Origin: Pseudomonadales bacterium
GTDB lineage: Bacteria; Pseudomonadota; Gammaproteobacteria; Pseudomonadales; Azotimanducaceae
Reading direction: 5' to 3'
DNA length: 64,000 bases
Assembly (NCBI GenBank): GCA_016779585.1
Contig: JADHNI010000007.1
Coordinates: forward strand, 1 to 64,000
The notes beneath the pieces were generated by a model. The model saw nothing but the letters and a program-made list of their open reading frames with translations, did no database searches and was not told where the DNA came from. Both the position numbers and the translations under genes were made by a program. The stretch's first letter is position 1, and each line of letters opens with the position of its first letter. Positions 60,145 to 63,301 of this stretch are shown here, in pieces.

Positions 60145-60369
60145 TTAATAGTGCGGGGGTTTTTCGTACTGCGGCGTTCCCGCCTGGGGTCGATGGTGTG
60201 AATCGGTCTCTAACTTTCGCAGTTGTTCTGCCAGTAACTGCACCTGCCGAAGAATATCCAGCAACTGTTTCTGCTGGTCTGCAAGAGCATCGTCCAGTTT
60301 ACTGATCGTGTGATCCTGGAATGCCAGTCGCTCTTCAAGGTCGATAAGCTTCTGCTCGACGTCAGTCAT
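60145..60369 (-). CDS. slyX: SlyX protein
   Basis: A 74-residue coiled-coil protein: VEQKLIDLEERLAFQDHTISKLDDAL, ADQQKQLLDILRQVQLLAEQL and the conserved tail PPHY. Role unknown. ATG 60369 overlaps the hisF TGA (TGATG), so slyX is translated with hisF here. Confidence 0.9.
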   Translation of the reverse strand: MTDVEQKLIDLEERLAFQDHTISKLDDALADQQKQLLDILRQVQLLAEQLRKLETDSHHRPQAGTPQYEKPPHY

Positions 60370-61148
60370 CAATACCTCATCCGGACCTTCACACCACGTT
60401 CGCTGAGCCAGCTTTTAAGCCCACTCACCGTGTAGTCACCATAGTGCACCATGGAAGCCACAAGCGCCGCATCCGCTTTGCCCTCAGTCAGCACTTCCAG
60501 CAGATGCTCCGGTTTACCAGCGCCACCGGATGCAATGACAGGGATGGAGACCGCCTCGGCAATCATGCGCGTCAGGTTAATCTCGTAACCTTCACGTGTA
60601 CCGTCTGCGTCAATGGAGTTCACGACGAGTTCTCCTGCACCCAGTTCTTCACCTTTGAGCGCCCACTCGAGCGCATCAATACCCATGGGAGTGCGACCGC
60701 CATTGATCACAACTTCATATCCGCTGGGAAACTCGCGAGTGGTTTCTACCTTAAGGATATCCATCGACAGCACGGTGTTCTGGTTACCTATAGCATGTGC
60801 ACATTCAGCAATCAGTTCAGGCCGCTTCACGGCGGCAGAATTAACGTTGATTTTTTCAGCGCCAGCCCAGAGGAGTTTGTTGGCATCTTCCACGGTGCGG
60901 ATGCCACCACCGACAGAGAATGGAATGTAGACTTCCTGCGCCACTTTCTCGACGACATCCAGCATGATGTTTCGGGCATCACTGGAGGCTGTGATGTCAT
61001 AGAACACCAGTTCATCCAGGCCATCGTCATAGTACTCACGCGCTTTCTCGACGGGGTCACCAATGTCCCTGGTATCAACAAACTTAACGCTCTTGGCGAG
61101 CTTGCCATCACGGACGTCCAGGCAGGCAATAATTCTTTTACTCAGCAT
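60369..61148 (-). CDS. hisF: Imidazole glycerol phosphate synthase cyclase subunit
   Basis: HisF joins ammonia from HisH to PRFAR, making imidazole glycerol phosphate and AICAR. The beta/alpha barrel keeps the catalytic D11 (IIACLDV) and D130 (LSMDILK) and the phosphate sites [13 protein letters not shown] and [11 protein letters not shown]. The sequence is the [22 protein letters not shown]...SIDADGT variant, which looks closer to the HisF form seen in deltaproteobacteria than to enterobacterial HisF. ATG 61148 overlaps the hisH TGA. No hisA, hisI, hisB or hisE is beside it. Confidence 0.9.
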
Positions 61149-61762
61149 CAGACACTCCAGCACTTGAAGGCGGCAAGCAGCTTCAAACCGAGTTCGCCAC
61201 TTTTCTCAAGGTGAAACTGGGTTGCAAACAGGTTGTCTTTGCCGATGATGGAACAGAAGGTTTTGTCGCCATAGTCGGTCGTCCCGAGGATGTTTTCTTC
61301 TCGCAACGGGCGCGCGTAATAACTGTGCACGAAATAGAACTCATCACCGGATTCCAGCTCGGACAGCATCGGGTGACTTCGCTCGATATTGATTTCGTTC
61401 CAGCCGATGTGCGGCACCTTAAGAGACCTGTCAGAAAAATCGAAACGCTCACAGGCGCCCTCGACGAGCCCCAGGCAATTCTTGTTGCCCTCTTCCGTAT
61501 GCTCAAGAACGATTTGCAGACCCAGGCAGATTCCCAGCAGGGGTTTGCCACTCTGGTAATAGGCAGTGATTGCCTCATCCAGGCCTCGCGCTTTAAGCGT
61601 ATCCACCGCGCTGACGGCTGAACCCACACCGGGAAAGATCAGCTTGTCCGCTGCCAGCACAACCTCGGGGTCTGCAGAGATTTCCGCATCCATTCCCACG
61701 TGCTGGCAGGCCCGCTGAACGCTGCGCACGTTTCCGGCGTCATAATCCACAATGACTGGCAC
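61148..61762 (-). CDS. hisH: Imidazole glycerol phosphate synthase glutaminase subunit
   Basis: A class I glutamine amidotransferase of 204 residues. The nucleophile C79 lies in LLGICLGLQ, and the His/Glu pair in [18 protein letters not shown] and VPHIGWN are standard. It hydrolyses glutamine and channels ammonia to HisF, which it overlaps. It is divergent from the GntR-PurM fusion across 135 bp that holds an 18-bp palindrome, so that protein may control it. Confidence 0.93.
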
Positions 61763-61848
61763 ACACCCTCCGGGTCGTACTGAAAAGAGCGCGCATTATA
61801 GAGGCCGGCCCCGCTTTCCGCGAATATTCATGTGGACTGAAATATTTT

Positions 61849-61866
61849 GTATTACATATGTGATAC
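61849..61866. promoter_or_regulatory. Palindromic operator between hisH and the GntR-PurM gene
   Basis: GTATTACATATGTGATAC is an 18-bp palindrome with one mismatched pair (T5 against G14), centred on ACATATGT. It lies 31 bp upstream of the GntR-PurM ATG and 86 bp from the hisH ATG. GntR proteins of the YtrA type bind such dyads at their own promoters, so autoregulation is likely. Confidence 0.65.
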
Positions 61867-61897
61867 AGTGGTGCCAGCCCAACAGTCAGGCCCAACC

Positions 61898-63301
61898 ATG
61901 AAACTGACCATCGACGACTCGGCTGCGATACCGGTTTTTCAACAGATCATTGACCAGATCCACTTCGCAATTTCTGCCGGAGAACTCGAAAGCAACGAAA
62001 AGCTGCCCAGCATCCGGACGGTAGCCAGTGACCTTGGGATCGCACCGAATACAGTGGCCAAGGCTTACCGCCAGCTGGAGTTTCGCGGCCTGATCAGGGC
62101 CCAGGATCGATCCGGGTTTATTGTCGTTTCAGGTGACTCAGACAACCGATACACAGCACGGGGTGTGAGTGCAGATAAAACCGAAGTACATGATGCGGTG
62201 GACCAGCTGGAACAGGGCCTGTTCCCCGGCGCATTCTGCAAGATCACCGAGGACTACCTGTCTGGCGACCCTGCAAAATGCAACGTCATCCACGCAGATG
62301 GTGCTGGCACAAAATCTATCGTGGCCTACCTGTGGTACAAGGAAACCGGCGATGCAGGTGTCTTTCGAGGTATCGCCCAGGACAGCATTGTCATGAACCT
62401 TGATGACCTGCTCTGCGTCGGCGTGGATGGCCGCATACTCATCTCGAACACGATTAATCGCAATGCCCTGAACTGCCCGGGCGAAGTCATCGCTGAACTG
62501 ATCAACGGCACTGAATCATTCCTGCAATCCATGCGCGACCAGGGCGTGAGCCTCTATTCGGGTGGCGGCGAGACGGCAGATGTGGGCGATCTCACAGGCA
62601 CGCTGGTCGTGGACTCTTGTGCGGTCGCGATCATGGACAAGCGCAGCGTGATCACCAATGAGATCAGTGGCGAACTCGTCATCGTTGGCCTGTCTTCAAC
62701 CGGTCAGGCAACTTATGAGGAGAGGGCCAACAGCGGCATGGGCAGCAACGGACTGACCAGCGCCCGCCACGATATGCTTTGCAACCACTATGCGCAGCAA
62801 TACCCGGAAGCTTTCGACTCGAACGTTGATTCGTCGCTGGTTTACTGTGGCCCCTATCGACTGTCAGACCCGTTACCCCGCAGTGAATTCAACGTGGGTG
62901 AGGCCATTCTCTCGCCCACCAGAAGCTATGCACCTGTCATTTACCGGATGCGTGAAACATTCGGCGAAGCAATAAAGGGCGTAGTTCACTGTTCCGGTGG
63001 CGGACAGACGAAGTGTTTACGCTTCGGGCGCGATGTGCATTTCATTAAAGACAACCTGTTTGACGTACCACCGCTGTTCGCAGCCATCCAGGAAGCGTCC
63101 GGCACCAGCTGGCAGGAGATGTACAAGGTTTTCAATATGGGGCACCGAATGGAGGTATACCTGCCGCCAGGCCTGGCCCAGGAGGCTATCGATATTGCTG
63201 CTTGGTTTGGCATTGACGCGCAGATCATCGGCCGAACGGAGCCCGCAACCAGCAATCACCTGACGCTGACCGATGCCAGCGGCTCGCAGCATCGCTACTG
63301 A
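61898..63301 (+). CDS. GntR (YtrA-type) DNA-binding domain fused to a PurM-like AIR synthetase
   Basis: One frame of 467 residues. Residues 1-79 are a YtrA-type winged helix ([42 protein letters not shown], ending GFIVVSG). From about residue 84 it continues as a full PurM-like enzyme: [21 protein letters not shown]/substrate loop DGAGTK (134-139), GGGETADVG (222-230), [20 protein letters not shown] and [14 protein letters not shown] (408-421). This is the AIR-synthetase form common in Bacteroidetes, where canonical HSNG is GSNG. The linker is about five residues. ATG 61898 fits; a TTG at 61847 would run through the operator. PurM closes FGAM to AIR in purine synthesis; here it may act as enzyme, sensor or both. 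Confidence 0.8.

Follow-up and report, generated by a model that had tools for sequence, protein, structure and literature searches.

A GntR–AIR Synthetase Fusion with a Conserved Upstream Palindrome: A Likely Self-Regulating Enzyme of Purine Biosynthesis

The window analyzed here, a stretch of 64,000 nucleotides from the genome of a Pseudomonadales bacterium, contains a gene in which a predicted DNA-binding domain of the GntR type is joined to an aminoimidazole ribonucleotide (AIR) synthetase, PurM. A candidate operator precedes this gene, and profile matches confirm that the divergent neighbors are hisH and hisF, as a first-pass annotation of the same sequence had stated. The features are as follows.

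60369–61163, minus strand: hisF (context), over the cut-off of TIGR00735
61148–61762, minus strand: hisH, divergent neighbor (context), over the cut-off of TIGR01855
61848–61867, no strand assigned: candidate palindromic operator TGTATTAC-ATAT-GTGATACA, from the family consensus TGTATCA-n6-TGATACA and a palindrome search
61898–63301, plus strand: gntR-purM fusion gene, 467 aa in a single frame from ATG to stop, with the start placed by aligning homologous starts
61898–62134, plus strand: GntR winged helix, residues 1–79, from PF00392 (E 2e-12 at residues 15–76) and conserved alignment columns
62135–62146, plus strand: short linker, residues 80–83, from the alignment and the structure model
62147–63298, plus strand: AIR synthetase (PurM, long Bacteroidota type), residues 84–467, from matches to 3mdo and 3kiz and from Foldseek
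62747–62749, plus strand: codon of N284, the inferred equivalent of N186 of Pyrococcus abyssi PurM by residue count in an alignment with 9vnw
62987–62989, plus strand: codon of H364, the inferred equivalent of P. abyssi H239 by the same count

The open reading frame as listed mechanically begins at TTG 61847; the ATG of gntR-purM is at 61898. Pfam assigns the N-terminal domain to the GntR family (PF00392, 46.9 bits against a cut-off of 27), and the alignment of homologues reveals an LPSIR motif with an invariant R40. The NCBIfam models for PdxR, MocR and GabR match residues 12–92 of the fusion. In the enzyme part, Pfam places AIRS at residues 126–245 and AIRS_C at residues 329–452, both over the cut-off. 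The AlphaFold model (mean pLDDT 79.6, pTM 0.75; five models from 63.7 to 79.6) is of low confidence at residues 80–108. Its comparison with the solved structures 3mdo and 3kiz by Foldseek gave TM values of about 0.94 of the target, which indicates a full-length PurM fold. These Pfam and structure matches uphold the initial description of a GntR winged helix (residues 1–79) and a complete PurM in one frame with a short linker. The assignment to the YtrA type stands for the winged helix, which is YtrA/MocR-like by sequence, but not for the remainder: the C-terminal helical dimerization domain of YtrA is missing because PurM, starting at residue 84 right behind the winged helix, occupies its place. 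At one locus (L033/L099, genome G007) the fusion frame runs 197 codons further upstream by way of repeat-like sequence (SFPRLRHS... in translation) and a run of N.

AIR synthetase converts FGAM and ATP to AIR, ADP and Pi, and AIR feeds the synthesis of both purines and thiamine. Residues 79–461 of the fusion match the solved PurM from Parabacteroides (3mdo) with an E value of 2e-139, residues 81–467 match that from Cytophaga (3kiz, 6e-135), and ordinary PurM structures match at 1e-13 or weaker. Bacteroidota were represented in our comparison solely by these two PDB chains. N284 and H364 are invariant in all 32 aligned rows, as expected for active-site residues, and the P. abyssi PurM mutants N186A and H239A are present among the deposited structures. 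Two observations count against reading the protein as an active, self-regulating AIR synthetase. The fusion misses the NCBIfam purM cut-off (TIGR00878, 86.9 versus 236.35 bits), which is passed in 13 of 14 control genomes and failed in one, and the solved relatives of the long PurM carry putative names. A search of the open-access literature found no functional study of the long PurM.

We examined whether the source genome, estimated to be 94.6% complete, encodes a separate canonical PurM, a check proposed in the first-pass annotation, and found none. The single match to TIGR00878 is the gntR-purM gene itself, and the three matches to PF00586 are the same gene, ThiL, and a 727-aa ORF (L002, G000:C23) which we take to be a fusion of SelD with an NADH dehydrogenase-like protein. 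PurL and PurE are over their cut-offs in this genome, and they were matched in 18 of 19 and 13 of 15 genomes searched, respectively. None of 17 genomes of the genus contains a canonical PurM over the TIGR00878 cut-off; elsewhere in the family five of eight genomes do, and in the order 12 of 13. In a sample of 150 family genomes, in which long PurM was called at E < 1e-60, this form occurs in 48 (36 intact fusions, three with a decayed winged helix, eight unfused genes and one fragment at a contig edge). Canonical PurM over the cut-off occurs in 95, no genome contains both forms, one further genome has a canonical fragment below the cut-off, and six have neither. In two of 16 genomes, both of them Myxococcota MAGs (L144 and L146; G537 and G538), the fusion and canonical PurM are found together, and hence the fusion is not the sole PurM everywhere; a paralogue pair or a binning error are possible explanations.

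The family counts also bear on the architecture itself. The first-pass annotation would have been contradicted by homologues that always split near residue 80; the 36 intact against eight unfused genes among 150 genomes speak otherwise, and the same architecture recurs in MAGs of Myxococcota and Planctomycetota. We used the winged-helix/junction alignment to scan named genomes and obtained 133 stretches encoding a relative, of which 80 loci were kept: 70 intact fusions (L084–L153) and 10 unfused genes from Opitutia/Verrucomicrobia. The scan pattern contains the winged-helix motif and so favors fusions with an intact domain, and many of the 70 loci are from the same species as the 150-genome sample, which makes them neither unbiased nor independent; L148 and L149 share one isolate as their source. 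As labelled, the 70 fusions stem mostly from MAGs of Gammaproteobacteria/Pseudomonadales, whose names include the K189A and OM182 clades, with five from Myxococcota MAGs (L144, L146 and L150–L152) and one from a Planctomycetota MAG (L147). Since the intact fusion recurs across genomes, in 36 of 150 in the family sample and at 70 of the 80 kept loci, we can eliminate the possibility of an assembly error or a chance frame. Two loci carry the labels "Acidobacteria" (L109) and "Klebsiella pneumoniae" (L124); their fusions group with the gammaproteobacterial ones in the tree, from which we infer that these MAGs are probably mislabelled. Long PurM is absent from all 368 other genomes of the class and present in one of 235 genomes in the phylum of G540 (labelled Myxococcota), G540 alone, and in 27 of 294 genomes in the phylum of G539 (labelled Planctomycetota), where the match begins from residue 1 only in G539. 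In a tree of 91 rows, with some open forks and a midpoint root for drawing only, fused and unfused long PurMs are interleaved. A single fusion event followed by losses is possible on these sequences, as is more than one event.

The palindrome TGTATTACATATGTGATACA at 61848–61867 has one mismatch between its arms and ends 30 nt before the ATG. The 18-bp palindrome reported earlier at 31 bp upstream is thus present, but is slightly longer than first described. Operator scores count the matches to TGTATCA-n6-TGATACA over its 14 specified positions, for the best site in the sequence that precedes the PurM junction. The site in the window matches 13 of them, a score not reached once when the 600-bp region was shuffled 200 times by mononucleotides; in shuffles, a score of 11 or more came up in 1.3% and 12 in 0.2%. 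Among the 70 intact fusions the score is 14 in 35, 13 in 16, 12 in 14, 11 in three and 10 in two, so that 68 score between 11 and 14. The remaining two are symmetric variants in which all seven outer pairs are matched and the half-sites have changed together (TGTACTAT/ATAGTACA in L136 and TGTACCCT/AGGGTACA in L147). At 10 of 14 positions these two are at chance level on consensus and rest on symmetry and position, which counts against the proposed autoregulation. The spacing between operator and start codon varies from about 3 to 82 nt, and therefore the conservation belongs to the site and not to a fixed leader. The operator is symmetrical in sequence, as would be expected for recognition by a dimer.

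No operator was detected before any of 31 unfused long purM genes (best scores 7–10), which comprise eight genes from the same family (8–10), 10 from Opitutia (8–10) and 13 from Planctomycetota (7–10; a 14th, L181, was left out). It is likewise absent before all four fusions in which the winged helix has decayed (8–9) and before all eight canonical purM genes examined from other families in the order (8–10). The presence or absence of the palindrome therefore tracks the GntR domain, its predicted binding partner. Conservation before intact fusions and absence before unfused or decayed genes agree with the original proposal that the fusion has an operator of its own, to which it would bind. We found no sigma70-like promoter in 61700–61960, which counts against the proposed control at this position.

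The relation between domain and operator could be followed within single genera. Four genomes of the genus of the source bacterium (G003, G008, G013 and G016) retain the layout of the fusion with hisH divergent, and their winged helix has decayed. Compared with intact members of the genus, the decayed proteins are 22–33% identical in the winged helix and 62–64% in PurM (measured for three of the four); pairs of intact fusions average 66% and 71%, respectively. By eye, the LPSIR motif is gone from the decayed winged helices, and the operator is absent too. In genus g36, the unfused genes sit at the same place (hisH is divergent and a PilU-like gene lies downstream in the six examined of eight) and have neither winged helix nor operator, whereas the fused L052 and L053 have both. 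Judged from these comparisons, the enzyme is the part that is retained, and winged helix and operator are gained or lost jointly. At L057, L058, L059 and L063, in genomes of 1.1–2.7 Mb from the genus of the source bacterium, a decayed winged helix still stands in frame ahead of PurM.

To count potential targets we searched entire genomes for the operator. With at most one mismatch, the source genome (3.49 Mb) contains one copy, at the gntR-purM gene, and G014, which is listed as 100% complete, also contains one. The degenerate pattern TGTAYYA-n6-TRRTACA has exactly one site in 20 of 24 fusion genomes, and in 19 of them this site is the fusion's own promoter. Two results of this search count against an enzyme that controls its own gene: the sole match in G024 is next to a GntR gene that stands alone and is accompanied by an ABC transporter, and four genomes have no match because their own operators deviate from the pattern. 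The reversed pattern matches in two of the 24 genomes. A search of eight genomes for TGTATYA-n6-TRATACA with one mismatch returned 18 sites, eight at the fusion gene and 10 elsewhere; G000, G014 and G053 have their own site only, and the five other genomes have one to four further sites. Two of the 10 extra sites adjoin a stand-alone GntR/ABC operon in G018. Beside seven others, Pfam identified no purine gene among the neighboring ORFs scanned (G018:C111 was left out), and three of the scanned ORFs gave no match or a domain of unknown function only. With one site in the source genome and no purine gene near the extra sites examined, a wider purine regulon is unsupported.

At L064 (G024:C148) and L172 (G018:C109), a stand-alone GntR gene is followed by a gene for an ABC-transporter ATPase, with sites of the type TGTATYA-n6-TRATACA adjoining; L172 has two copies 47 bp apart. 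These stand-alone genes are likely relatives, or the source, of the fused winged helix. Their sites suggest that such winged helices recognize this motif, and a similar site in two stand-alone GntR/ABC operons fits the assignment of the motif to the GntR class.

The divergent hisH is adjacent in 34 of the 70 fusion loci and lies 2.2 kb away in L090; by tblastn, we found no hisH in the other 35, two of which have less than 600 bp of upstream sequence. All 36 loci without adjacent hisH keep the operator, which ties it to the fusion gene. These loci rule out that it is a general hisHF element. The four decayed fusions keep hisH and have lost the operator. On both counts the suggestion in the first-pass annotation that the protein sets expression of hisHF does not hold as a conserved role, and such control may be a side effect in the source lineage. 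Among the genes scanned around eight hisH-less loci (L115, L124, L126, L134, L144, L147, L150 and L152), no shared neighbor and no purine gene was found.

Taken on sequence evidence, the gntR-purM product is likely an AIR synthetase that also autoregulates its own gene, that is, a trigger enzyme. Since a DNA-binding domain is combined with a matching site before the gene that encodes it, the fusion protein very likely controls its own production, and the direction of this control is probably repression. The earlier annotation had left open whether the PurM domain is a sensor or a moonlighting enzyme. The comparisons favor the moonlighting enzyme because long PurM replaces canonical PurM without overlap in the family sample, PurL and PurE are present, and the sister clade keeps PurM as the winged helix decays; a pure sensor is disfavored.

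For the scheme that follows we infer catalysis, DNA binding, the dimeric mode, the direction of regulation and gating by metabolites. The C-terminal 384 residues would be the cell's AIR synthetase, of the long type of Bacteroidota and Planctomycetota, standing in for canonical PurM. The winged helix would bind a single site, TGTATCA-n6-TGATACA, shortly before the start codon of the fusion gene. It would probably do so as a dimer, with the PurM dimer substituting for the missing dimerization helices of YtrA. In an excerpt of PMC6746942, GntR regulators are described as binding palindromes as dimers, with a C-terminal effector/oligomerization domain that passes on the signal. The bound fusion protein would adjust, and most likely repress, transcription of gntR-purM. 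With the DNA-binding arm attached so near the catalytic part, operator binding would probably depend on whether the active site is loaded with FGAM/ATP, loaded with AIR/ADP or empty, so that expression would track the need for the AIR synthetase step. Whether occupancy of the active site by metabolites does gate binding is a question on which we see the chances as evenly balanced. We are equally divided on the more specific proposal of a single-target GntR class that has a working AIR synthetase as effector and senses the state of that enzyme's active site (FGAM/ATP versus AIR/ADP) where the routes to purines and thiamine part, having arisen where long PurM displaced the canonical form and occurring in at least two further phyla.

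The closest competitor to this scheme leaves out the metabolite: an active AIR synthetase could bind the operator constantly and steady its own level by negative feedback. We regard such a constant autorepressor as possible but rather unlikely. A single-target operator at its own gene would suit it, and YtrA-type regulators may be devoid of a ligand pocket according to part of PMC6746942. However, the short linker makes coupling between the two domains plausible, and known trigger enzymes are described, in passages of PMC8249747, as binding DNA when their substrate is absent. The position of the operator between divergent hisH and purM raises the further idea that it also sets histidine synthesis and so ties the release of AICAR by HisHF to purines. 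The arrangement in the window, where hisH and hisF are divergent, and the 34 loci with a divergent hisH are in its favor, but the 36 loci that have an operator and no adjacent hisH, and the four decayed fusions that have hisH and no operator, make this cross-pathway control improbable.

The two remaining explanations each deny the protein one of its functions, and we give little credence to either. If the winged helix were vestigial or structural, the protein would no longer bind DNA and would be just an enzyme. Four sister fusions indeed seem to manage with a decayed domain, but elsewhere the conservation of the domain almost equals that of PurM (66% versus 71%) and the operator co-occurs with its intact form, which renders this explanation very doubtful. 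Conversely, the PurM domain might be a noncatalytic sensor, like the aminotransferase domain of MocR or the shikimate-kinase-like domain of BzdR. Noncatalytic effector domains are usual in GntR proteins, the NCBIfam purM cut-off is missed, and BzdR offers a precedent by what an excerpt of PMC3602430 reports. Against a pure regulator stand the lack of any other PurM in a source genome that has PurL and PurE, the exclusive replacement of canonical PurM in the family, the invariant active-site residues, and the decayed members that retain PurM and lose the winged helix. Moreover, the single target is the protein's own gene, and therefore a pure sensor would have nothing further to regulate. We consider it the least probable of these explanations. 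An AIR synthetase that regulates its own gene remains our preferred reading.

The principle behind this reading is already known from trigger enzymes, and MocR is a known example of an enzyme fold that carries a GntR winged helix. BirA, PutA, NadR, PepA and PyrH of E. coli are likewise metabolic enzymes that bind DNA and regulate a target in the same pathway. The DNA-binding domains of BirA and PutA are of a type other than the GntR winged helix. Unlike these trigger enzymes, the fusion combines AIR synthetase with a GntR winged helix, and its single predicted target is its own purM gene; PutA and PepA are listed as single-target regulators in passages of PMC8249747 and PMC6978683. Regulators of the MocR/GabR type share the N-terminal GntR winged helix on a large enzyme-like domain, which in MocR is a sensory, aminotransferase-like domain (excerpt of PMC5320631). 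The fusion, in contrast, carries a PurM in which the active-site residues are kept, in a genome that has no second PurM.

YtrA-subfamily repressors have the same type of winged helix, and their stand-alone relatives in the family, which are linked to ABC transporters, have a similar operator. The fusion differs in that the small C-terminal domain of YtrA is replaced by PurM. According to a section of PMC6746942, the regulon repressed by Sulfolobus acidocaldarius YtrA is very small, and its own operon is part of it. The long PurMs of Bacteroidota (3mdo and 3kiz) share the fold of the fusion's enzyme and are about 54% identical to it across its full length, but these chains start where the PurM part of the fusion starts and have no winged helix. 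BzdR (an HTH domain with a shikimate-kinase-like domain) and ArsRM (a repressor with a methyltransferase) also represent DNA-binding domains recruited to an enzyme; by the excerpts of PMC3602430 and PMC10190100, catalysis is lost in BzdR, ArsRM belongs to arsenic resistance, and neither is a purine enzyme. Judged by titles and the openings of abstracts, we found no description of a GntR–PurM protein in the open-access literature, in line with the earlier remark that its author knew of no such described regulator. Within this same body of titles and abstract openings, AIR synthetase in the role of a trigger enzyme would be new.

The fusion occurs mostly in uncultured bacteria. If the proposed function is correct, an enzyme of a universal pathway would bear its own transcription switch and would need no separate regulator, and PurM would join the GntR family as an enzyme-type effector domain. 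Related bacteria provide a natural series: some have the canonical PurM and some a long PurM without fusion, others a fusion preceded by the operator, and others again a fusion whose winged helix has decayed and whose operator is lost. With this series, the gain and loss of gene control by an enzyme would become directly testable.
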